Source of the DNA: Mitsuokella multacida DSM 20544
Lineage (GTDB): Bacteria; Bacillota; Negativicutes; Selenomonadales; Selenomonadaceae
NCBI RefSeq assembly: GCF_000155955.1
Contig: NZ_GG697141.2
Span: 444,855-508,854 of the forward strand
Reading direction: 5' to 3'
Length of the DNA stretch: 64,000 nt
Shown here piece by piece: positions 4,552-17,732 of this stretch. A model generated the notes under the pieces. It saw only the letters and a list, made by a program, of their open reading frames with translations. It made no database searches and was not told where the DNA came from. How positions within the stretch are numbered: position 1 is the first letter of the stretch; each line of letters opens with the position of its first letter. The position numbers and the translations under genes were made by a program.

Positions 4552-7500
4552 TTGCAGTTAAAACGCCTTGAGGCATATGGATTCAAGTCCTTTGCCGACA
4601 AGATTACCATTGAATTCGACCACGGCATCACGGCGATTGTCGGCCCGAACGGCAGTGGCAAGAGCAATATCACGGATGCTGTGCGCTGGGTGCTCGGCGA
4701 GCAGAACATCCGCAACCTGCGCGGCACGCGCTCGGAGGACATTATCTTTGCGGGGTCGGCGCAGCGGCGGCCGCTGAACATCGCGGAGGTCTCCCTGATC
4801 TTCGACAACGACGGCACGCTGCCCGTGGACTTCCGCGAGGTGGCGGTGACGCGCCGGCTCTACCGCAGCGGGGAGAGCGAGTACTTCATCAACCGCTCCC
4901 GCTGCCGCCTCAAGGATATCTACCAGCTCTTTGCCGACACGGGCATCGGCCACGACGGCATGAGCATCATCGGCCAGAACCGCATGGAGGACATCCTCAA
5001 CAGCCGTCCGGAGGACCGCCGCGCCTTCTTCGAGGAGACGGCGGGCATCACGAAGTTTCGCGATCGCAAGCGCGAGACGGTGAAGAAGCTCACGGACACA
5101 GAGGCCAACCTGCTGCGCGTGCAGGACATCATGCAGGAGATCGAGACGCAGCTCGAGCCGCTCGCGCGCCATGCGGAGAAGACGCGCCAGTACAATGCAT
5201 TGCATGAGGAGTACCAGAAGTGCAAGCTGACGAAGTTCGCGCGCAGTGCCCGCCGCGAGGCGGACCGCAAGGCGGCCAATGAGGAGAAGCTCCAGAAGGT
5301 CCGCGACGAGTCGCTCGGCTTCGAGACGGCCGTGGGGCGGGCCGCAGCGGAGCGCGAGGCGATGCAGAAGGAGATTCTCGAGCTTGAGCAGTGCATGAAG
5401 ACGGGCGCCGAGGCCAATGAGTCCTTGCGCCAGAAACTCGAGGCGGCCAACCGCGAGATCGCGGCGCTCGAGGAGCGCCAGGGGCAGAGCGGTGCGGAAA
5501 AGGTGCGCATCGAGGCGCGGCGCGCCGAGCTGCAGGAAGCGCTCGTGCAGTCGGTCCGCGAGATCGGCAGGCTCTCGGGAGAGGCCGCGGAGAAGAAGCG
5601 GAAGCTCACCGAAGCCGATGCGCATGCCGAGGGCCAGCAGGAGCGCGCCGCAAAAATTGCCGCCATCGTGGCGGAGCGCAAGAAGGCGGCGGAAACGCTC
5701 GGCAAGCAGCGCGAGACAAAACAGGAAGAGCTCGCAGCGGCCAAGCAGGCGCTCGCCGTCCTCGACCGCGACATCGAGGCGGGCAGCGAGGGACGCGCGG
5801 AGCGCCAGGCTGCCATCGCGGCGGCAAAGGCCAAGCAGTCGTCACTTGAAAAGCAGCAACAGGAACTGACCGCCTCGCTTGCCGAGAAAGAGGTGGCACT
5901 CCAGCAGGCCGTCAAGGCCCAGCAGCAGGCGCGCCATGCCCAGCAGAGTGCCCAGCAGGAAAAAGCGGCGCTGCGCGAGCAGCAGGAGAAACTCGCGCAG
6001 CGCGCGGCCGGCCTGCAGGAGAAGATTGACTTCCTGCAGCACATGCAGGAGGAGTACGAGGGCTTCGGCAAGGCGCCGAAGGCTGTGCTGCAGAGCAAAG
6101 AGCCATGGCATGATGGCGTCGCCGGCGCCATCGCGGAGCTCCTGACAATCCCAGCAGCTTACATGACGGCCATCGAGATTGCTCTCGGCGGCAACCAGCA
6201 GAACATCGTGACGGAGGACACGGAGACGGCCAAGGAGGCCATCGCCTACCTCAAGCGCAAGCACCTCGGCCGCGTGACCTTCCTGCCGCTCTCGACGCTC
6301 TCTGTGCAGTACCCGAAGGACCGGGAGAAGGAGGCGGAGCGCGGCGAGGGCGCGATTGGCTGGGCCAACGAGCTCGTGGAGGTCGAGGAAAAGTACCGCA
6401 AGGCGGCCGACTTCCTGCTCGCGCGCATCCTCGTCGTCGACACGCTCGACCATGCGCTCGCCCTCGCCAAGAAGCAGGATTACCGCCTGCGCATCGTGAC
6501 GCTCTCGGGCGAATTCCTCGCGCCGGGCGGCTCGCTCTCAGGCGGCGGCCGTGCACGTCGCGAGGCGAGCTTCCTCAACCGCAGCGGCGAGATCGAGTCC
6601 CTGCACGAGAAGCAGGCAGACGCTCGCGAGAAGCTCAAGGAAAAGCAGGCAGAGGTACAGCAGGCAGCGGAGGCAGCAGCCGAGGCGGAGCGCCGCCAGT
6701 CGGAGGCGCTCGCGCTCGTGCAGCAGCAGAGCGTCGCGCGCGCCGAAGCGCGCGTGAGCCTCGAGCGCCTGAAGGAGAGCCTCGCGGCGCAGGTACAGAC
6801 CGTGCAGGAACTCTTCGCAGCCGATGCCAAGCGCCAGGCGACGTTTGCCGAGAACCAGAACAAGCGCGTCCTGCAGGCGCGCTCCGTCAAGCTGCTTGCG
6901 GAGGCCGTCGAAGCGGCTAAGAAGCAGGCGGAGGAGAGCCTCTTAGACCTCGAGGATGTCGAGCAGGACGCGGCGGCGCTCGGCAAGTGCATGCAGGAAG
7001 AAGCCCTGCAGCGCACGGTGCTCGAACAGGAATGGAAGCGCAGCGCCGAGCAGATGGCGCTCTACCGCCAGGAGAAGCAGCGCGGCGAGCAGTCGCTCGC
7101 GGAGCTCGAGCAGGAGGAAAAGCAGCTCGCAACGCGCACGGCAGAGAGCGCAGCGCGCCTGCAGGAACTCGAGCGCAGCTCGCAGGGGTGGCAGGATTCC
7201 TTTGATGCCGCGCAGAAGAAGCAGCGCGACCTCTACGGCCTGCGCATGGAGAAGATGGCCGCCGGCCAGGAGCTCGAGGCGAAGGGCCGCGAGCTCTCGC
7301 GCAAACTCAGCCGCAAGCAGGAGGAGGCACACCAGCTCGAGATCCTCGCCGCTAAGATCCAGATGACCCTGCAGGACAGCCAGCAGTCCATCCTGCACGA
7401 GTTCGGCCTGACGCCGGAGCGCGCGCTTGAAGAAGCATTAGACCTCGAGCCGCAGGAACTGCGCAGCCGCATGCAGTCCCTCAAACGTCAGATGGATGCC

Positions 7501-8187: not shown

Positions 8188-9102
8188 ATGGGATTTTTTG
8201 ACCGGCTCAAGAAGGGCCTCAATAAGACCCGCGAAAACCTGACGAACAAGATCGAGAAGATCATCATCGGCTATGCCGACATCGACGATGACCTGCTCGA
8301 TGAGCTCGAGGAGACGCTCATCATGGCGGACGTCGGTGTCCAGACGACGGACAAGCTCATGACGGCTGTGCGCAAGGGCATCAAGAAAAAGGAAATCAAC
8401 ACGCCGGAGAACCTCAAGCCGTTCCTGCAGAAGCAGATTGTCGAGATCCTGACGGCGGGCGAGGACACGACGCGCATCGCTGAGCAGGGGCCGACGGTCT
8501 TGCTCGTCATCGGCGTCAATGGCGCGGGCAAGACGACGACAATCGGCAAGCTCGCCGCCTACTACAAGGGGCAGGGCAAGTCGGTCCTGCTCGCCGCGGC
8601 CGATACCTTCCGCGCGGCGGCCATCGACCAGCTCGAGGTCTGGGGCCAGCGCACGGGCGTGCCCGTCATCAAGCACGAGGAGGGTTCCGACCCGGCGGCC
8701 GTTGCCTTCGACGCCGTCAAGGCAGCCGTCGCGCGCAAGGTCGACATGCTGATCATCGACACGGCGGGCCGCCTGCAGACGAAGTCCAACCTTATGCAGG
8801 AGCTCGAGAAGATCAACCGCGTCATCGGCCGTGAGATCCCGGGCGCGCCGCACGAGACGCTGCTCGTGCTCGACGCGACGACGGGGCAGAACGCCATCAG
8901 CCAGGCCGAGCTCTTCACCAAGGCCGCACCGATTACGGGTGTTGTCCTGACAAAGCTCGACGGCACGGCCAAGGGCGGCGTCGTCATTGGCATCAAGAGC
9001 CAGCTCTCCATGCCGGTCAAGTGGATTGGCGTCGGCGAGGGTGTCGAGGACCTGCGCCCCTTCAACGCCGAGGACTTTGCCAAGGCGCTCTTTGGCGAAT
9101 GA
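8188..9102 (+). CDS. ftsY: Signal recognition particle receptor FtsY
   Basis: A 304-residue SRP GTPase. The ATG at 8188 follows GGGAGG. It is the short form without a long acidic A domain: the N domain starts almost at once, and the G domain has P-loop GVNGAGKT (109-116), DTAGR from about 191 and TKLDGTAKGG from about 255. It docks SRP-ribosome complexes to the membrane for cotranslational insertion. It ends at a strong terminator and is probably cotranscribed with smc. Confidence 0.97.
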   Translation: MGFFDRLKKGLNKTRENLTNKIEKIIIGYADIDDDLLDELEETLIMADVGVQTTDKLMTAVRKGIKKKEINTPENLKPFLQKQIVEILTAGEDTTRIAEQGPTVLLVIGVNGAGKTTTIGKLAAYYKGQGKSVLLAAADTFRAAAIDQLEVWGQRTGVPVIKHEEGSDPAAVAFDAVKAAVARKVDMLIIDTAGRLQTKSNLMQELEKINRVIGREIPGAPHETLLVLDATTGQNAISQAELFTKAAPITGVVLTKLDGTAKGGVVIGIKSQLSMPVKWIGVGEGVEDLRPFNAEDFAKALFGE

Positions 9103-9127
9103 CGGTAATCGGAATATCATAAAAGTA

Positions 9128-9172
9128 AAAGACGAGGTCACATGTGAGAGGATACATGTGACCTCGTCTTTT
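9128..9172. terminator. Bidirectional terminator between ftsY and the citC/citX relic
   Basis: An 18-bp perfect stem, with arms ending at GGTCACATGT (9145) and starting at ACATGTGACC (9154), an 8-nt loop, an A run on the left and a T run on the right, serves both strands. Confidence 0.9.
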
Positions 9173-9186
9173 TCAATTCAGTGGTG

Positions 9187-9318
9187 TCAGTGGTGTAGGT
9201 ATGCTGAAAGCATCTTGCTGATGCGCTTCGTCAAATCCTCGACGGAATGGCGGCGACTGCGCGAGCAGACCTGCGCCTGCTCGCCGCAAAGCAGGCAGCG
9301 GCGCGGCGGCATCGCTTC
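9187..9318 (-). pseudogene. citX: Remnant of citX (apo-citrate lyase phosphoribosyl-dephospho-CoA transferase), C-terminal end
   Basis: In a frame shifted against the citC remnant, about 43 codons read EAMPPRRCLLCGEQ, AQVCSRSRRHSVEDL and a final helix to a TGA at 9187. As I remember the family, the CLLC...CSRSRRHSVEEL-type pattern is the conserved C-terminus of CitX, which attaches the prosthetic group to the citrate lyase acyl carrier protein. The catalytic part of CitX is missing, and the fragment sits directly behind the citC remnant where citD, citE and citF would be expected in a cit operon. A remnant left by deletion is the simplest reading. Confidence 0.6.
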
Positions 9319-9924
9319 GGAGCCAGTCGTACGTCGCCTTGGGCACGAGCTCCTGCAGGTGCTGCCAGTCGCCGTCCTTGACGCACTGGCGGACGTCGGA
9401 GGCGCTGACGGCGCGGCCCGCGATGGCGAGGCGCGGGATGACGCGGCACTCGACGCCGAGCTCCGGCAGCTTTTCGCGCATCACCTTGTTGTAGAGGCCC
9501 GTGACCTGGCTGAAGGGCTCTTCGCCGCCGCGATCTTGGCGAACAGCGTGAGGTCGAGCTCGGCGTGACCGACACTCGCGGTGTCGTCGTCCGGCAGGAA
9601 GTAGCTCGGGAAGGTCGCGTTGCTGATGATGTACGGGCCGCTCGCGTGCAGGACGACGTTGCCGAAGCCGGCGATGCCGCGCTCTGCGAGGAATGCCTGT
9701 GTCTCCCTCTCGAAGCGGCTGAGGCAATGACGGAACCCGTCGGCTGATTCTCCATAAAGACGAGGCGGTCGGGCACGCGCGATCTCGTAGAAGCCGAGGT
9801 CGTGGAAGAAGCGCGCGGAGGCGACTTTCGTGTAGAGGAAGAGGTCGAGGTTGCCGCGCTCGAGTTCCTTCTCCATCAGGTGGCTGATGACGCGGTTTAA
9901 GAGCCCCTCGCCGCGGTGGCGGTG
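9314..9924 (-). pseudogene. citC: Degraded citC (citrate lyase ligase) gene
   Basis: Segments of [citrate (pro-3S)-lyase] ligase are found in order but in different frames. From a stop at 9927 the first frame gives RGEGLLNRVISHLMEKELE and FLYTKVASARFFHDLGFYEI (end of the acetyltransferase-like domain), then ASGPYIISNATFPSYFL and AELDLTLFAKIA. The frame then shifts near 9525 to EEPFSQVTGLYNKVMREKLP, VIPRLAIAGRAVSASDVR and ELVPKATYDWLRS. The stretch that should carry the HxGH-type nucleotidyltransferase motif (NANPFTLGH in relatives) is deleted, the N-terminus is missing, and about 10 codons are lost at the frameshift. It cannot yield an active ligase. Confidence 0.8.
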
Positions 9925-9951
9925 CTATCCCGCTGAACACGATCGCAATAG

Positions 9952-9990
9952 AAAAGCCTCTGCAATCCATCGATTGCAGAGGCTTTTTTT
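9952..9990. terminator. Bidirectional terminator downstream of dapL
   Basis: A 16-bp stem, AAAAGCCTCTGCAATC (9952-9967) with its complement at 9972-9987, loop CATC, A run left and T run right. It ends the minus-strand dapL transcript. Confidence 0.92.
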
Positions 9991-10006
9991 ATGGCAAGTT
10001 TGCGTA

Positions 10007-11239
10007 TCAGAACTTGAGCTTGGCAAAGCGTGCGACGGCGCGCTTCGTGTTCTCGCGGCTGCCGAACGACGTGAGGCGGAAGTAGCCCTCGCCGCACGGG
10101 CCGAAGCCTGCGCCCGGCGTGCCGACGATGTTGACTTCATGCAGCAGCTTGTCGAAGAAGTCCCACGAGCTCATATTGTTCGGCGTCTTGAGCCAGATGT
10201 ATGGAGCGTTGACGCCGCCAAAAGCCTGGAGGCCGGCAGCCTTGAGGCCCTCGCGGATGATGCGGGCGTTCTCCATGTAGTAGGAGACGAGTTCTTTGAC
10301 CTGCTTCTGGCCCTCTTCCGTGTAGATGGCCGCAGCGCCGCGCTGCACGATGTAGGCCGTGCCGTTGAACTTCGTCGTATGACGGCGGTTCCAGAGCTTG
10401 TTGAACGGCACGAGGGAGCCGTCCGCAGCGCGGCCCTTGACCGTCTTCGGGATAATCGTGTAGCCGCAGCGCGTGCCCGTGAAGCCCGCGGTCTTGGAGA
10501 AGGAGCGGAACTCGATGGCAACGTCCTTGGCACCCGGGATCTCATAGATGGAGCGCGGCACATCGTCTTCCGTGATGTAGGCGGCATAAGCGGCGTCGAA
10601 GAGGATGACCGACTCATTTTCCTTGGCGTAGTTGACCCACTTCGTCAGTTCCTCGCGCGAGAGTGTCGTGCCCGTCGGGTTGTTCGGGCAGCAGAGGTAG
10701 ATCATGTCGACCTTTTCCTTCGGCAGGTCCGGTGCGAAGTTGTTCTCCGCCGTGCAGGGCAGATAGACGACGCCTTCGAAGTGGCCGTCGTCCTGCAGCG
10801 TGCCTGTGCGGCCGGCCATGACGTTCGTGTCGAGGTAGACCGGGTAAACAGGGTCCGTGATGGCGACCTTGTTGGCCGTGCCGAAGATCTCCTGGATGTT
10901 GCCGCAGTCGCTCTTCGAGCCGTCGCTGACGAAAATCTCATCCGGCGCGATCTCGATGCCGCGGTCCGTGTAGTTGTGCTTGATGATGGCTTCCGTCAGG
11001 AAGGAGTAGCCCTGCTCCGGGCCGTAGCCGTGGAACGTCTCAGCCTTGGCCTGATCGTCGACGGCCTTGTGCATGGCCTCGATGCAGACCTGCGGCAGCG
11101 GCTGCGTGACATCGCCGATGCCGAGACGGATGATGTCGGCATCCGGGTTCGCTTCCTTGTAGGCGGCGACGCGGCGGGCGATTTCGGCGAAGAGATAGCT
11201 GCCGGGCAGCTTCAGATAGTTATCATTAATGGTAGCCAT
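10007..11239 (-). CDS. dapL: LL-diaminopimelate aminotransferase
   Basis: A 410-residue class I/II PLP aminotransferase that converts tetrahydrodipicolinate directly to LL-diaminopimelate with glutamate, bypassing the succinyl or acetyl steps of lysine synthesis. The start at 11239 follows GAGGAGG. The N-terminus ([19 protein letters not shown]) and [13 protein letters not shown] are typical of DapL. PNNPTG is at 185-190 and the PLP lysine is K249 in SFSKTAG. It works with asd (56276) and dapB (55421) in this window. It is a single-gene unit with its own promoter and terminator. Confidence 0.95.
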
Positions 11240-11288
11240 AGAATGAAATCCTCCTCATAGAATTGTTATCAATATAACTTTTTAGCAT

Positions 11289-11294
11289 ATTATA
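11289..11294 (-). promoter_or_regulatory. Extended -10 element of dapL
   Basis: On the minus strand the sequence reads TGGTATAAT, an extended -10 about 50 nt before the start codon, without a clear -35. Confidence 0.5.
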
Positions 11295-11490
11295 CCACAA
11301 CATTATGCATATGGCACGTATTTTCCAGCGTGAAATCCGAAAAACGCAAATTTATTCTGTGTGTATTTTACGATGTATTCATGTACTGCAATTAAATTAT
11401 GCATTCAATACATAACAATAAAAATGATTAATAGTATTTAGACAAGAATAATCGATGATTATCATTAAAATATTTTATGATAAATAGTAT

Positions 11491-11519
11491 TTACTTATGA
11501 TTATGGTATATTGTATAAT
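11491..11519 (+). promoter_or_regulatory. Candidate promoter of dcuB
   Basis: A perfect TATAAT at 11514-11519 with a poor -35 (TTACTT, 11491-11496) at 17 nt. In this AT-rich region chance matches are likely, so the call is tentative. Confidence 0.3.
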
Positions 11520-11807
11520 AAACAATGTGTTTAGGTGAAATGTTTCAAAAGACGTCCTGAGCCATTTGCCGGTTCCTATCCATATCAAAAAGCAATCATC
11601 TCGATACATTTTTCGTATGATTTTTTTTACAGGTGGCAGGATTTGAACGATGGATGGCGAAAACCTAATAACAAGCGGAAATAATCTCTTGGTTTAAATT
11701 GTTCCATAGGGAAACAGATTTGCTTGTCAAGGGGGGATTCAATAGGAACGTAGAGAGATTCATTTCACGAAGGCAAGTATATGTTTTTTAGGAAGGGGAG
11801 TTCTACC

Positions 11808-13151
11808 TTGAGCTTACTACTTGGTATCTTTATCCTGCTTGCGTGCCTGATCGTCGGCGTACGTTATGGCAGCCTTGGCCTTCCGGTCATCAGCGGCATC
11901 GGCCTCATCATTTATGTCTTTGTGCTTGGATACAAGCCGGGCACGCCACCAATCGCCGTCATGCTCACGATTATCGCAGTCGTCACCTGCGCGGGCTATC
12001 TGCAGACGTCTGGCGGCCTCACGGTCATGCTGAAGTACGCAGAGAAATTCCTGCGCAGTAACCCGAAGCGCGTCACGATTTACGCTCCGCTCACGACTTG
12101 GCTGCTGACGATCCTCTGCGGCACGGGCCATGTCGTTTACACGATGTTCCCAATCATCTATGATGTCGCAATCCACGAGAATATCCGTCCTGAGCGCCCG
12201 ATGGCTGTTGCTTCTGTCGCTTCGCAGATGGGTATTTCGGCATCGCCGGTATCGGTCGCGCTGGTCAGCATGGCTGGTTTCATCAGTGCAGCAGGCCTGC
12301 CGTTCACGGTCATCAATCTGCTGGCTGTCTCCATCCCGGCTACGTTCTGCGGCGTCATGGTTGCAGCAATTTGGAGCTATCGTCGCGGCAAGGATCTGGA
12401 AGAAGATCCGATTTTCCAGGCGTACATCAAAGATCCGGCTCATTACCAGGATGTATACGGTAATCAGACGGAATCGCTGCAGGATAAGGAACTGCCGAGC
12501 TCGTTCTATCGTGCTATGTACATCTTCTTCCTCGGCATCATCATCATTGCCGTGCTCGGTAACTTCCCGCAGATTCTGCCGTCCTTCCCGGATGCAAAGG
12601 GCACGATGAAGGCAATCTCCATGACGACGGTCATCCAGATGATCATGCTCGTCATCGCAGCGGCTATCCTGATTTTCTGCAAGGTCAATGCAAAGGATGT
12701 TGGCAAGAGCCAGGTCTTCCACGCTGGCCTCGGCGCAGTCGTCTGCGTCTATGGTGTTGCTTGGATGGCAGATACCTGCTTCTCCAACCACATGGCAGAC
12801 CTCAAGGCAATCATCGGCGGTCTCGTTCAGGCATATCCTTGGACGTATGCACTGGCTATGTTCCTCACGTCGAAACTCGTTAACTCGCAGGCAGCTGCCG
12901 TTTCGATCATCGTTCCGCTGGCTCTGACCATCGGTGTTGACCCGATTGTCATCCTGTCCTTCATCTCTGCTTGCTACGGTTACTTCTTCCTGCCGACGTA
13001 TCCTTCGGACCTCGCCTGCATCAACTTTGACCGTTCTGGCACGACGCATATCGGTAAATATGTCCTGAACCACAGCTTCATGATTCCGGGTCTTCTCGGT
13101 GTCTTCACGGGCTGCTGTGTCGGTTATGTCATTGCTCACATTCTCTATTGA
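11808..13151 (+). CDS. dcuB: Anaerobic C4-dicarboxylate transporter, Dcu family
   Basis: A 447-residue membrane carrier with about 12 hydrophobic segments. I place the start at the TTG at 11808: AGGAAGGGGAG lies 7 nt upstream, and the resulting N-terminus (SLLLGIFILLACLIVGVRYG) lines up with Dcu proteins; an ATG at 11781 has no ribosome site. Segments CGTGHVVYT, IIYDVAI and NIRPERPMA, and the C-terminal YPSDLACINFDRSGTTHIG, match DcuB-type antiporters closely. These exchange fumarate, malate or aspartate for succinate during anaerobic growth. Codons are more T-rich than in neighbours, as is usual for a highly expressed gene. A larA-family racemase follows 89 bp downstream. Confidence 0.93.
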   Translation: MSLLLGIFILLACLIVGVRYGSLGLPVISGIGLIIYVFVLGYKPGTPPIAVMLTIIAVVTCAGYLQTSGGLTVMLKYAEKFLRSNPKRVTIYAPLTTWLLTILCGTGHVVYTMFPIIYDVAIHENIRPERPMAVASVASQMGISASPVSVALVSMAGFISAAGLPFTVINLLAVSIPATFCGVMVAAIWSYRRGKDLEEDPIFQAYIKDPAHYQDVYGNQTESLQDKELPSSFYRAMYIFFLGIIIIAVLGNFPQILPSFPDAKGTMKAISMTTVIQMIMLVIAAAILIFCKVNAKDVGKSQVFHAGLGAVVCVYGVAWMADTCFSNHMADLKAIIGGLVQAYPWTYALAMFLTSKLVNSQAAAVSIIVPLALTIGVDPIVILSFISACYGYFFLPTYPSDLACINFDRSGTTHIGKYVLNHSFMIPGLLGVFTGCCVGYVIAHILY

Positions 13152-13192
13152 TGGATCATTGATCGATAGAGCGTGTAGTTTAACCGCATGAT

Positions 13193-13225
13193 AAGGGAGA
13201 CACTGACAGAGTGTCTCCCTTTTTT
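13193..13225 (+). terminator. Terminator or attenuator between dcuB and larA
   Basis: A perfect 12-bp stem (AAGGGAGACACT, 13193-13204, with its complement at 13210-13221) and a T run. The AGGAGG site of the next gene begins only a few bases further on, so any transcription of larA from the dcuB promoter must pass this hairpin. Confidence 0.85.
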
Positions 13226-13240
13226 ATAGGAGGAATCTGG

Positions 13241-14518
13241 ATGAAACAGTATACTTTTCATTATGGTCGTGGCACGAAGAGCTTTTCCCTCGATGAGAGC
13301 AAGGTCATCAAGGAAGTCGATATGCCGGCGGTCAAGCCTTTGACGGACATCAAGCAGGCCGTGCTCGATGCGGTTTACCATCCGATTGGACAGAAGCCAA
13401 TCAATGAGATCATCAAGCCGGGGGATACCGTGACCTTTATCTGCAATGACCCGACGCGTGTGGCCAACAGCTTTGACTTCATGCCGGTCTTGGTCAATGA
13501 GATGAATCGGCTCGGGGTCCCGGATGAGAACATGCAGATCGTTTTCTCGCTCGGGACGCATCGCCTGATGACGCAGGAAGAAATGGCAGAAGGGGTCGGC
13601 AAAGAAGTAGCTAGCCGTCTGCGGATGTATAACAGTGACTGCAATGTGCCCAGTGACTTTGAGTATTTCGGCACGACGAGTCGCTTCACGCCTGTCCTGA
13701 TCAATAAGCACATCTGCCATAGTGATCACGTGATTTTGACCGGCACAATCGTGCATCATTATTTCAGCGGCTACGGCGGAGGCCGTAAGGCTGTGCTGCC
13801 GGGGTGCGCAGCCATGGAAACCGTGCGTCACAACCATAGCTTCATGATGGACCCAAATGCTGGCCTCGGTCGCACGACGGGCAACCCTGTCTATGAGGAT
13901 CAGATGGAAGGCGTGGCACTCTGGGCTAAAGGACGCAGTGTCATTCTGTTCAACGCGATCTTGGATGCCGAACATCGCTTCCTGAAGATGTTTGCGGGAG
14001 ACTATATCGAAGCGCATCATGAAGCCTGCAAATTCGTAGATGAGGTTTACGGTGTCAAGATTCCTGCTCAAGCAGACATCACGATTGCCAGCTGCGGCGG
14101 CTATCCAAAGGATATCAATGTCTACCAGATGCAGAAGACGATGGATAATGCGGTGCTGGCGACGAAGCAGGGTGGTGTGGTCATCCTGCTGGCCGATTGT
14201 GAGGAAGGCAGTGGCAGCAAGGTGCTGGAGGAAACCTGCCGCACGTTGAAGACGGCTGATGCGATTGAGGCCAAGCTGCGTGACCGCTTCCTGATTGGTG
14301 CGAATAAGGCCTACGCCATTACGCGCCTGACGAAGAAAGCCCATTTCATCTTGGTCACGGGGCTCGACCGACAGCTGGCTAAGGACATGCTGTTTGATGG
14401 TGCTGTTGACACGGTAGAAGAGGCCTTGGAATTGGCGAAACAGTATGTTGGCGATGATGTGCATTACATCCTCATGCCGACGGGGAGCCTGACGGTGCCA
14501 CTTTATCGTCCCGAATGA
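13241..14518 (+). CDS. larA: LarA-family nickel-dependent 2-hydroxyacid racemase
   Basis: A 425-residue member of the lactate racemase superfamily (DUF2088). The ATG at 13241 follows AGGAGG. Key residues of Lactobacillus LarA are present: the HH pair at 172-173 (H174 in LarA), K183 in SGYGGGRKAVLPG (K184, which binds the nickel-pincer nucleotide), and FSLGTHRLM with its histidine. The superfamily includes racemases for lactate, malate and other hydroxyacids. The close partnership with a C4-dicarboxylate carrier makes malate a plausible substrate here; that is inference. The cofactor genes larB, larC and larE are not in the window. Confidence 0.85.
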   Translation: MKQYTFHYGRGTKSFSLDESKVIKEVDMPAVKPLTDIKQAVLDAVYHPIGQKPINEIIKPGDTVTFICNDPTRVANSFDFMPVLVNEMNRLGVPDENMQIVFSLGTHRLMTQEEMAEGVGKEVASRLRMYNSDCNVPSDFEYFGTTSRFTPVLINKHICHSDHVILTGTIVHHYFSGYGGGRKAVLPGCAAMETVRHNHSFMMDPNAGLGRTTGNPVYEDQMEGVALWAKGRSVILFNAILDAEHRFLKMFAGDYIEAHHEACKFVDEVYGVKIPAQADITIASCGGYPKDINVYQMQKTMDNAVLATKQGGVVILLADCEEGSGSKVLEETCRTLKTADAIEAKLRDRFLIGANKAYAITRLTKKAHFILVTGLDRQLAKDMLFDGAVDTVEEALELAKQYVGDDVHYILMPTGSLTVPLYRPE

Positions 14519-14570
14519 AATGCCGAGACAAATATATGCTGACAAGGCATAAAGCGTAAGAGCATGCGAA

Positions 14571-14622
14571 AAAAAGCCTGTATGGGTTCGACATCTTACA
14601 TGTTGAACCCATACAGGCTTTC
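14571..14622. terminator. Bidirectional terminator between larA and the LysR gene
   Basis: A long near-perfect stem, AAAGCCTGTATGGGTTC with GAACCCATACAGGCTTT, separates the converging genes; the left side has an A run and the right side a short T run. Confidence 0.88.
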
Positions 14623-14657
14623 GTGGTTAAAAATCGGTTCTATTCGTTTTTATTGGC

Positions 14658-15566
14658 TTATTTGGCATCGGTAGTATCATCGAATGACGTATTCTTCTTG
14701 AGCAGGTCCTTGCAGAAGTCGATGAAGGACTGCGCGGCCTTGGAAATGTAGCGATCTTTCTTCCAGGCGAGGCCGACGTCGACGAAGATGGGGTCGGCGA
14801 GCGGCAGGGTCTTGAGGCCCGGCATCTCGTCGGCGACCATGTCGAGGCGGAAGGTGATGCCGACGCCGTTGGCGACGAGACCCTTCAAGGTGTTAATCTG
14901 GTTGGATTCGAGCACGATGTTCGGCGTGATGCCCTCGTCCTTCATGCGGCCGAGGATGGTCTGGCGCAGGAAGGAGCCCTCCTTGAGCATGACGATCTTT
15001 GTGTCGGCCACATCGTTCATCGAGATGGCCTTCTTCTTGGCGAGCGGGCTGCTCGCCGGCACGCAGCAGACGATCTGGTTCTTGGACATGGGCAAGAGCT
15101 GCAGGCGGTTCGAGGCGCCGGAGAGGATGATGATGCCGAAGTCGAGCTCATCGTGCTCGAGCTGTTCGCGGATCGACATCGAGGCTTCCTCGTGCATGAA
15201 GATGTCGAGATGCGAGTAGCGGCGTTGGAAGCTCGAGAAGATGCGCGGGAAGAGGTAGGCGCCCATCATCGGCGGCACGCCAATCTTGATGGTGCCTTTC
15301 TGGAGTTGCTTGTAGTCATTGACCTCCAGTACCGCATCCTGGATGTTGCGCAGGGCGAGCTCGACCCGGTTGAGGAAGACAGCACCTTCTGGCGTTAGCG
15401 CGAGCTGTTTCTGGCTGCGGTCGAAGAGCTGGATGCCGAGCTCGGCCTCGAGCTTCTTGATGGCGACCGTGATATTTGGTTGGGAAACACGCAGGCGTTC
15501 CGCAGCGCGGGTGATATTCCGCAGACGGCTGGCCATCTGGAAATATTCGAGTTGTCTGAGTTCCAT
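14658..15566 (-). CDS. LysR-family transcriptional regulator
   Basis: A 302-residue LysR protein starting MELRQLEYFQMASRLRNITR, with helix-turn-helix core VSQPNITVAIKKLE. Its effector domain begins GTIKIGVPPMMGAYLFP, close to the LysR at 3634-4548. It faces larA across a shared terminator and is divergent from acpS, with 205 nt of AT-rich DNA between. The ribosome site is weak (AAGAAG). It could control dcuB-larA, but the arrangement is convergent rather than the usual divergent one. Confidence 0.9.
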   Translation of the reverse strand: MELRQLEYFQMASRLRNITRAAERLRVSQPNITVAIKKLEAELGIQLFDRSQKQLALTPEGAVFLNRVELALRNIQDAVLEVNDYKQLQKGTIKIGVPPMMGAYLFPRIFSSFQRRYSHLDIFMHEEASMSIREQLEHDELDFGIIILSGASNRLQLLPMSKNQIVCCVPASSPLAKKKAISMNDVADTKIVMLKEGSFLRQTILGRMKDEGITPNIVLESNQINTLKGLVANGVGITFRLDMVADEMPGLKTLPLADPIFVDVGLAWKKDRYISKAAQSFIDFCKDLLKKNTSFDDTTDAK

Positions 15567-15771
15567 TCAAATCGCTTCTTTCTTTATAAATTCGCTTTAT
15601 TTAATGCCATTATACCATACTTTTGATGCATATATGATAGTATAACCAAAAATTATTAAAAATATAGTGGAAACAGTTCCATAAAACGGCTTGATTTTGG
15701 TAAAAGCAGGAAAATAAAGCCGTTGTGGGGAACTTAAATAAGGACATATGATGCATTAGGAGGTGGATGTC

Positions 15772-16143
15772 TTGATTCGAGGAATCGGAACGGACATTGT
15801 GGAGATTGCGCGCGTCAAGCGTGCGGCGGACAGCGAGGCGTTCTGTCGGCGCGTCTACACGCAGGCGGAGCGCGCTTACTGTGAGAGCCGCGGCGTGCAG
15901 CAGATGGCGAGCTATGCGGCGCGTTTCGCGGGCAAGGAGGCCGTCTTGAAGGCGCTCGGCACGGGGCTGCGCGGTGGCACGCTGCACGACGTCGAGATCT
16001 TGCTGGATGAGCTCGGGGCGCCGCAGGTGCACCTCAGCGGCTACTTTGCGCAGCTAGCCCGCCGCCGCGGCGTCCTGCGCGTCTGGATCTCGCTGAGTCA
16101 TTCGCGCGACTATGCGACGGCGCAGTGTGTATTGGAGGGATGA
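15772..16143 (+). CDS. acpS: Holo-[acyl-carrier-protein] synthase
   Basis: A 123-residue 4'-phosphopantetheinyl transferase that activates the fatty-acid acyl carrier protein using CoA. The TTG at 15772 is chosen because AGGAGG (15758-15763) lies 8 nt upstream and the protein then begins MIRGIGTDIVEIARV; a GTG at 15763 overlaps that site. Magnesium ligands D8 and E56 (FAGKEAVLKALGTG) are present. It is followed after 2 nt by the NAD(P)HX repair gene, a common pairing in Firmicutes. Confidence 0.95.
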   Translation: MIRGIGTDIVEIARVKRAADSEAFCRRVYTQAERAYCESRGVQQMASYAARFAGKEAVLKALGTGLRGGTLHDVEILLDELGAPQVHLSGYFAQLARRRGVLRVWISLSHSRDYATAQCVLEG

Positions 16144-16145
16144 CG

Positions 16146-17732
16146 ATGAAGGTATCTTTGGTCAAGGAGATGCGCGCCGTCGACCGGCGCGCCGGAGAGG
16201 AGTACGGCCTGCCGGAAGTCGTGCTGATGGAGAATGCCGGCCGGCAGACGGCGGCGGCCATGGTCTCACTGCTCGGCTCCGTGCGCGGCAAGACCATCTG
16301 TGTCCTAGCCGGCAGCGGCAACAATGGCGGCGACGCCTTTGCGGCGGCGCGCTACCTCTACAATGAGGGCGCCGTCCTCAAGGTCTTCCTGACGGGCAAT
16401 CCGGACCACATCAAGGCCTCGCCCTCCATCATGAAGCAGGCGCTGACGGCGATGGGCATCGCCGTCCACGGCCTCGCAGGCGACCGCGACATGGACCGGC
16501 TGCGCCTCGCGCTGCGCTTTGCCGACGGCGTGCTTGATGGCATCCTCGGCACGGGCTTCCGCGGCACGCTGCGCCCCGTCGTGCGGCAGGCGGTGGAACT
16601 CGTCAATGCGGCGGGAAAGCCCGTGCTCGCCATCGACATCCCGAGCGGGGTGGAGGCCGATACGGGGGCGGTTAGCGATGTGGCGGTGCACGCCGCGAAG
16701 ACCATCGCGCTCGGCCTGCCGAAGCCCGGCCATCTGCTCGGCCAGGGGGCGGTGTACACAGGCGCGCTCACCGTCGACTCCATCGGCATCCCGCGCCAAC
16801 TATTAGAAGATGAGGCCATCTTGCAGGCGTGCATCGACGATGGACTTGCGGCCTCCCTGCTGCCCGTGCGCCCGCGGACAGCCCACAAGGGGACCTGCGG
16901 CCGCATCCTCATCGTCGCGGGCTCGCATGGCATGACGGGCGCGGCGGCACTTTGCACGGAGGCCAGCCTGCGTGCGGGCTGCGGCATCGCGACGCTCGCC
17001 GTGCCCGAGAGCCAGCAGCCCATCCTGGCCGTCAAGCTCACGGAGGCGATGACGGTGCCGGTGCCCGAGCAGGAGCCGGGCGTCCTCGGCGGCAGCGAAG
17101 CGCTCAAGGTGCTCATGCCTCTCGTTGAGGGGTACGATGCCGTCCTCGTTGGGCCGGGGCTCGGCCGCGCACAGGTGACGGGCGAGCTCGTCAAGGCGCT
17201 CGTGCGCGAGGCAGACAAGCCATTGATCCTTGATGCCGATGCCATCTACGCCCTGCGCGGCGCGCCCGAGATCCTGCGTGAGGCGAAGCATGTGCCAATC
17301 CTCACGCCGCACCTCGGCGAGATGGCGGGGCTCCTCGGGCTCTCGGTCGCAGACCTGCGCGAGGACCTTGCAGGCATCGCGCGCGACGTTGCCGCCGAGT
17401 ACCATGCCGTCTTCGTGCTCAAGAGCGAGTGCACGCTCGTGGCCTTCCCAGACGGCCGCGTCTACTTCACGACGAAGGGCAATGCCGGCATGGCGACGGC
17501 CGGCGCAGGCGATGTCCTCGCCGGCACGATAGCGGGCCTCATGAAGCAGGCGGCAGAGGGCATGGCCCCCGTGCTCGGCGTCTACCTGCACGGCCTCGCG
17601 GGCGACCTTGCCTATCAGGAGAAGGCCGAGGGGCTCCTCGCGGGGGACATCCTCGCCAAGCTGCCCGAGGCGCGCCGTCGCCTGCAGGCGCATTCTCTTC
17701 CTTATAATAAGAAGCACGATGAAAACGAATAA
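16146..17732 (+). CDS. nnr: Bifunctional NAD(P)H-hydrate epimerase / dehydratase
   Basis: A 528-residue fusion. The N-terminal YjeF-N domain (about 1-215) carries GSGNNGGD at 56-63 and epimerises damaged NAD(P)HX. The C-terminal ribokinase-like domain (about 225-528) carries HKGTCGRILIVAGS and the anion-hole motif AGAGD ending at D456, and dehydrates S-NAD(P)HX using ADP or ATP. The ATG at 16146 has GGAGGG upstream, inside the end of acpS. This is a metabolite-repair enzyme of the cytosol. Confidence 0.95.
   Translation: MKVSLVKEMRAVDRRAGEEYGLPEVVLMENAGRQTAAAMVSLLGSVRGKTICVLAGSGNNGGDAFAAARYLYNEGAVLKVFLTGNPDHIKASPSIMKQALTAMGIAVHGLAGDRDMDRLRLALRFADGVLDGILGTGFRGTLRPVVRQAVELVNAAGKPVLAIDIPSGVEADTGAVSDVAVHAAKTIALGLPKPGHLLGQGAVYTGALTVDSIGIPRQLLEDEAILQACIDDGLAASLLPVRPRTAHKGTCGRILIVAGSHGMTGAAALCTEASLRAGCGIATLAVPESQQPILAVKLTEAMTVPVPEQEPGVLGGSEALKVLMPLVEGYDAVLVGPGLGRAQVTGELVKALVREADKPLILDADAIYALRGAPEILREAKHVPILTPHLGEMAGLLGLSVADLREDLAGIARDVAAEYHAVFVLKSECTLVAFPDGRVYFTTKGNAGMATAGAGDVLAGTIAGLMKQAAEGMAPVLGVYLHGLAGDLAYQEKAEGLLAGDILAKLPEARRRLQAHSLPYNKKHDENE

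Follow-up and report, generated by a model that had tools for sequence, protein, structure and literature searches.

We analyzed a window of 64,000 nucleotides from Mitsuokella multacida DSM 20544 (assembly GCF_000155955.1, contig NZ_GG697141.2, positions 444,855 to 508,854), in which the gene of an anaerobic C4-dicarboxylate carrier (dcuB) is followed by the gene of a LarA homolog (larA). The LarA homolog is very likely a racemase of a C4 hydroxydicarboxylate that uses the nickel-pincer nucleotide (NPN) cofactor. Malate is the most probable single substrate for it, and malate racemase is the reading we lean towards, given the match with the malate racemase Mar2 at 12 of 14 diagnostic positions, the presence of Lys356, the best match among solved structures, the separation from lactate racemases in the tree, the Dcu neighborhood, and the cofactor and pathway genes of the genome. 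Malate racemases as such have been described before; the novelty lies in a lineage in which we identified no tested member, with an altered pair of pocket residues, a recurrent Dcu neighborhood and a conserved control region. The analysis establishes the genes, their residues, the lineage, the synteny, the hairpin, the promoter and the presence of the pathway genes; from these we infer the substrate, the direction, the regulation and the read-through of dcuB-larA. The gene and the codons on which the assignment turns, the latter placed by residue alignment, are these:

13241 to 14518, plus strand: larA homolog of 425 amino acids, an NPN-dependent 2-hydroxyacid racemase/epimerase, probably for malate (domains, residues, tree, model)
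13559 to 13561, plus strand: codon of the predicted catalytic His107 (LarA His108)
13757 to 13762, plus strand: codons of the predicted catalytic His173 (LarA His174) and pocket Tyr174 (LarA F175)
13787 to 13789, plus strand: codon of the predicted pincer-attachment Lys183 (LarA K184)
13835 to 13837, plus strand: codon of the predicted nickel ligand His199 (LarA H200)
14303 to 14308, plus strand: codons of Asn355 (at LarA W358, where malate racemases have H/Q) and Lys356 (at LarA T359, the lysine typical of malate racemases)

Membership of the LarA superfamily, with pincer-nucleotide chemistry, is supported by domains, residues and a predicted fold. The protein matched the Pfam domains Lar_N (E=2.1e-60, 203.8 bits) and LarA_C (E=1.7e-21, 77.2 bits). 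All of the residues of the pincer cofactor and catalysis were kept (D70, R73, H107, H173, K183, H199, Y295, Q296 and K299); LarA R75, K184 and H200 correspond to R73, K183 and H199, and LarA D72, H108, H174 and K298 to D70, H107, H173 and K299. Their roles around the cofactor are those given in excerpts of PMC7583248 and PMC11851776. The preliminary description of this DNA had noticed the histidine pair and the pincer lysine, and H107, H173 and K183 bear it out. The AlphaFold model of the protein (mean predicted local distance difference test score 91.2) had the LarA fold: it superposed on lactate racemase structures with Z of 48-50 and a root-mean-square deviation (rmsd) of 2.0-2.3, and on 9eia with Z 50.5 and rmsd 2.0 over 419 residues. 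The rmsd to Mar2 was larger (4.6-4.7, Z 43), and Foldseek ranked Mar2 first by E-value. The window larA encodes the only Lar_N protein found in the whole genome. The cofactor genes larB, larC and larE are present elsewhere in the genome, in one copy each and all over their cut-offs (299, 466 and 328 bits).

The carrier gene was assigned by Pfam, NCBIfam, start-codon and identity comparisons:

11808 to 13151, plus strand: dcuB, anaerobic C4-dicarboxylate carrier of 447 amino acids, TTG start

The carrier protein matched the Pfam family DcuA_DcuB (E=2.4e-138) and scored 508 bits against the NCBIfam Dcu model, whose cut-off is 331. It is closer to DcuB than to DcuA of E. coli, with 53.3% and 34.7% identity, respectively (DcuB and DcuA share 36.3%), and so the earlier label of a DcuB-like transporter holds. 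It also keeps K353, T394 and D398 of E. coli DcuB, which we take to be functional positions, and DcuA lacks two of these three. The surroundings differ: the neighbors of dcuB are fumB and dcuSR in E. coli, and larA and a LysR regulator in the window. All 11 relatives examined begin at the position of the TTG at 11808 (with ATG, or TTG in locus L094), which has a good ribosome site upstream. This TTG is likely the start, as first described, as far as can be told from these 11 relatives, and an ATG at 11781 was rejected. Both dcuB and larA are intact, and this is the only Dcu carrier found in the 2.58-Mb genome. An excerpt of PMC7419537 lists aspartate, malate, fumarate and succinate as antiport substrates of DcuB.

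Among solved structures, the best match by sequence was Mar2 (E=4.4e-84; the next, E=1.2e-49), which is the LarAH6 malate racemase of Thermoanaerobacterium thermosaccharolyticum (PDB 6d6z, 7s91). The two proteins are 36% identical in the structural alignment and share the fold, the catalytic and NPN residues, the loop Tyr, the Gln before the catalytic Lys (Gln298) and the Lys at the T359 position (Lys356). They differ at two of the diagnostic positions, where Mar2 has a loop Lys and a His at the W358 position and the M. multacida protein has Phe and Asn355; lactate racemase 2yjg differs from the latter at four. In the excerpts of PMC11770544, malate racemases usually carry H/Q and then K at two helix positions, the K being the probable ligand of the second carboxylate. 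The lysine is present and invariant in lineage alignments of 17 and 35 rows. An alignment of 113 rows had the full 14-letter signature with Asn in 79, ours included; the frame-broken L111 also had Asn-Lys (N-K) at these positions, and 17 relatives had Phe-Phe with His-Lys (H-K). The malate racemase lysine was absent from eight further LarA homologs of other genomes whose pocket residues were inspected.

We then placed the protein in trees, after dropping the broken L111 (larA is split into two frames at 5001-6268 of that bin) and near-duplicates recognized by eye or by record, 11 rows in all for the first tree and 17 for the second. Both trees were made by a quick method, with support from the Shimodaira-Hasegawa-like approximate likelihood ratio test (SH-aLRT) only. 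The first tree had 102 rows and was rooted on lactate and short-chain racemases; long branches were flagged in it. The lactate and short-chain racemase group was separated from our protein (SH-aLRT 99). Mar2 with L025 (97) and the LarAH10-like proteins (98) formed separate groups, and the lineage of the M. multacida protein formed one group (99), in which its nearest relatives are Selenomonadaceae. It thus falls outside both the lactate racemase clade and the Mar2 clade, and a place within the former, which had been named as the result that would overturn the earlier proposal, was not found.

As regards the metabolic setting, contig C5 of the genome carries together the genes of fumarase alpha and of the flavoprotein and iron-sulfur subunit of a succinate dehydrogenase/fumarate reductase, and between them are fumarase beta-like and cytochrome b-like genes (named by eye). 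The flavoprotein and the iron-sulfur subunit matched succinate dehydrogenase models best; the enzyme may work as a fumarate reductase. A malic enzyme is also encoded. Because the fumarase lies beside the succinate dehydrogenase/fumarate reductase, L-malate could feed fumarate respiration. D-malate is not converted by FumA or FumB of E. coli (PMC3565967). Given this selectivity of fumarase and the substrates of DcuB, a racemase/epimerase would open D-malate, or L-/meso-tartrate, to the pathway. No D-malate use by Selenomonas appeared in the titles or abstract openings of the literature searched.

The mechanism that we propose is as follows. LarA would convert a C4 2-hydroxydicarboxylate, most probably malate, between its D and L forms. 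As in the family, one histidine would take the 2-hydroxyl proton while the C2 hydride is passed to the pincer cofactor, which Lys183 and His199 hold; the hydride would then return to the opposite face of the keto intermediate, and the second histidine would supply the proton. Lys356, in the first turn of the central helix, Tyr174 and Asn355 would hold the distal carboxylate. DcuB would import malate and export succinate, LarA would convert D-malate to L-malate, the form accepted by class I fumarase, and fumarase and succinate dehydrogenase/fumarate reductase would take the L-malate on to succinate. Transcription of the dcuB-larA pair would start at the conserved promoter before dcuB, possibly controlled by the neighboring LysR protein, and larA would be read through a terminator, so that less racemase is made than carrier. 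If this is true, gut and rumen anaerobes, Succiniclasticum, Schwartzia and Phascolarctobacterium among them, spend a rare nickel cofactor to feed mirror-image malate or a close relative into dicarboxylate metabolism. These three genera are succinate users.

The control region on which part of this mechanism rests was composed as follows:

11461 to 11481, plus strand: LysR-type dyad ATCAT-N11-ATGAT, candidate operator of the dcuB promoter (conserved placement before the -35)
11490 to 11519, plus strand: predicted sigma-70-type promoter of dcuB, TTTACT-N18-TATAAT (consensus match, conservation)
13193 to 13221, plus strand: terminator-like hairpin (12 pairs, T-run) between dcuB and larA (fold, conservation)
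13228 to 13233, plus strand: predicted larA ribosome site AGGAGG, directly after the T-run (sequence)
14658 to 15566, minus strand: gene of a LysR-family regulator, convergent with larA; candidate for control of the dcuB-larA pair (Pfam LysR_substrate and HTH_1)

The promoter matches the consensus at 10 of 12 letters, and TTTAC followed by TATAAT was found in all 12 dcuB upstream regions compared (window included). In eight of the 12, ATNAT-N11-ATNAT, the shape of LysR sites, preceded the -35 at a distance of exactly 8 nt, against 0.9-4% per sequence in shuffles. The sequences of the promoter and spacer sets are related, some of the same genus, and thus not independent, and the upstream regions are A+T-rich. 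The dyad was absent in L059, L061, L069 and L034; L069 and L034 nevertheless carry the LysR gene, which weakens the link between the two. Among the 80 named loci, 10 had a LysR relative ending 67-152 bp away from larA, and Dcu lay upstream in all 10. The dcuB-larA spacer is 89 bp, with a fold z of -3.15 over 13149-13240. Since in the window larA follows the hairpin too closely for a promoter to fit between them, larA should be transcribed through the hairpin or from a start inside it. A known riboswitch near the two genes was rejected: Rfam over 9000-17000 gave two snoRNA matches (E 0.25 and 0.48), far under the gathering scores.

Several findings weigh against a malate racemase coupled to DcuB, and they are given here with the alternatives that they favor. 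The first alternative, which we consider unlikely, is that dcuB and larA are neighbors by descent without a joint function, larA acting on an endogenous metabolite. A hairpin with a T-run was present in 15/15 Selenomonadaceae dcu-larA spacers (the window and 14 others), and its stem took several different sequences. With this conserved terminator between them, the two genes are not a plain operon. No such hairpin site was found in two Sutterella spacers. Among 60 genomes of relatives, nine had an N-K LarA, three of these with Dcu and six with no Dcu match; conversely, 35 of the 51 genomes without an N-K LarA had Dcu over the cut-off. Many loci also showed other larA neighbors with no evident tie to malate. 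On the other hand, the two genes were adjacent in all three genomes (of 60) having both. We also compared the best 80 of 359 larA-relative loci from a scan of genome contigs, in which flank lengths were limited and the neighbor counts are lower bounds. Dcu lay inside the flanks in at least 19 of the 80, directly upstream in 13 Selenomonadaceae-type loci (L059-L070, L094) and otherwise arranged in six of Sutterellaceae: upstream in L116 and L117, past larE-larC-larB in L115, L124 and L127, and downstream on the opposite strand in L095. This recurrence in differing orders argues against mere descent, as does the conservation of the dcuB-larA-LysR block while the region beyond it varies. The Dcu-LarA link is therefore lineage-specific: it holds in bacteria resembling Selenomonas and in part of the Sutterellaceae and is not general. 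LarB relatives flanked larA in at least 19 of the 80 loci and LarC relatives in at least 18, which ties the lineage to the pincer cofactor; LarE lay beside larA in a cluster of 14 loci, of which the one member tested (L102) scored 150.8 bits against a cut-off of 150. The earlier term of a nickel-dependent dicarboxylate module thus stands for the cofactor residues, LarB/LarC/LarE and the recurrent pairing in some lineages, and is weakened by the terminator between the genes and by the N-K genomes without Dcu. Titles and abstract openings of the open-licence literature held no description of a Dcu-LarA pair.

A second alternative, rather improbable in our view, is that the LarA homolog acts chiefly as a tartrate 2-epimerase (from D- or L-tartrate to the meso form and onward) and that DcuB imports tartrate. 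L-tartrate would go to L-tartrate dehydratase, or D-tartrate would be dehydrated by class I fumarase, and the oxaloacetate would enter the reductive path; in the pocket, Asn355 with Tyr174 would bind the extra 3-hydroxyl. Malate racemases usually have His or Gln where our protein has Asn355, and a coupled change of F/H to Y/N could mean a changed ligand. Besides the fumarase, the genome encodes an L(+)-tartrate dehydratase alpha subunit (533 bits against an equivalog cut-off of 365). However, this gene lies on contig C6, which also carries larA, at a distance of some 0.41 Mb from the latter and a few kb from a glycerate-type cluster with a sugar-diacid-type regulator, a GntP permease and a glycerate kinase (L154, 1452-5416). 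D-tartrate use in E. coli depends on DcuB and FumB (PMC3565967). Sporomusa termitida, the source of the malate racemase LarAH62, is presumably of the same bacterial class as M. multacida, and LarAH62 may belong to the H-K sister lineage. Excerpts of PMC11770544 report that known malate racemases epimerize tartrate as a side reaction; LarAH62, which we compared by this description only, is far weaker on tartrate (1.1e4 and 3.5e3 per M per s) than on malate (6.3e5). As to the earlier idea that the pair serves malate conversion for fumarate respiration, the lysine, the non-lactate clade, DcuB, and the fumarase by succinate dehydrogenase/fumarate reductase speak for it, while Asn355, the place outside the Mar2 branch and tartrate as a rival substrate leave it only partly upheld.

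We compared positions 174 and 355 in an 80-row set of the lineage. Tyr174 with Asn355 was found in 67 rows and Phe174 with His355 in 13, with no mixed forms. In a tree built without the two columns, each position changed three times. Considering columns with one residue in at least 85% of the rows of each form, only 174 and 355 separated the two forms in every row; 189 and 383 also separated them, but with deviating rows. The equivalents in LarA, F175 and W358, are already named as substrate contacts in excerpts of PMC7583248 and PMC11770544. An independent-pairs test had two pairs on supported branches (p 0.5), too few for significance, and the coupled switch is a hint rather than a significant result. 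Tyr occurs together with His in Mar2 and L025, and by itself it therefore agrees with malate. Tentatively, and with small odds of holding in full, the Tyr174/Asn355 form may be a distinct LarA specificity class, a malate racemase re-tuned by the two-residue switch to tartrate or another 3-substituted malate; it would provide a dedicated, nickel-dependent entry into fumarate respiration in gut Negativicutes and Sutterellaceae, in some of them beside DcuB. Such a switch would be a small, testable handle on substrate choice across the superfamily.

A third alternative, decidedly improbable, is a broad or different 2-hydroxyacid racemase/epimerase resembling LarAH10 of Megasphaera elsdenii (for hydrophobic hydroxyacids or gluconate/mannonate), with the carrier incidental. 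LarAH10 was the top NCBIfam profile by bits, ahead of the malate racemase family LarAH6, and none of the equivalog cut-offs was reached (LarAH10 432/540, LarAH6 394/500, LarAH5 326/462 and LarA 286/460 bits). In addition, the LarAH10-like group was the nearest neighbor of our lineage in the tree (SH-aLRT 96), before Mar2, and the six N-K genomes without Dcu fit an incidental carrier. However, the program flagged long branches among the tree rows, and the pockets differ: nine LarAH10-like proteins (L020 and L022 tested over the model cut-off, the other seven grouped by the tree) have Phe/Tyr/Trp then Val/Ile at the helix positions and lack the Lys and Gln of the dicarboxylate pocket, whereas our protein has N-K. 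In excerpts of PMC11770544, hydrophobic hydroxyacid racemases generally have F/Y at the first helix position, where ours has Asn355. Since neither it nor its tested relatives reach any of the cut-offs that NCBIfam currently uses for naming, automatic annotation can give them no precise name.

Finally, a lactate racemase, the name given by default annotation, is very hard to credit and was rejected: the Lar_N and LarA_C domains and the likeness to LarA (PDB 5huq, 6c1w, 2yjg) in fold (Z 48-49), cofactor and catalytic residues agree with it, but the score is under the LarA cut-off, the clade is another, and the pocket reads Y, F, N, K instead of F, F, W, E/Q, with Trp358 and Phe175 not kept.

Some observations on relatives of the malate racemase candidate are added. 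Eight H-K loci had wide flanks; a DASS-type anion carrier lay within about 5 kb of larA in three of them (two genera) and none was seen by eye in the other five. One of these three also has an aconitase/isopropylmalate dehydratase-like pair. Near larA, the H-K relative L045 (2582-6458) encodes a hydratase pair resembling LeuC/LeuD, together with a PrpR-type sigma-54 regulator; our guess is that the pair hydrates maleate or citraconate to D-malate or D-citramalate. In L044 (5135-8970), an H-K larA lies between two FtsZ-like genes (named by eye). Bins labeled Pyramidobacter or Acholeplasmataceae (L087, L089, L100, L104 and L107) carry a larA of our lineage, through either wrong binning or gene transfer.

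The cofactor genes were more widespread than LarA. LarC was present in 35 of 37 family genomes. Of these 35, 18 had no full-length LarA (at least 190 bits), and 14, including both same-genus genomes, had no Lar_N match over the cut-off; some family genomes are incomplete. LarB, checked in 25 of the 37, was present or absent together with LarC. Cofactor genes with no visible client may point to an unknown pincer-cofactor enzyme. Genome G022 (99% complete) has a LarA homolog of 204 bits, yet no LarB or LarC over the cut-off. Faint Lar_N matches of about 50 residues occurred in many genomes of relatives, in frames similar in length to a DUF362 protein encoded on contig C6 of M. multacida (L154, 16782-17906), and we guess that they come from DUF362-type proteins.

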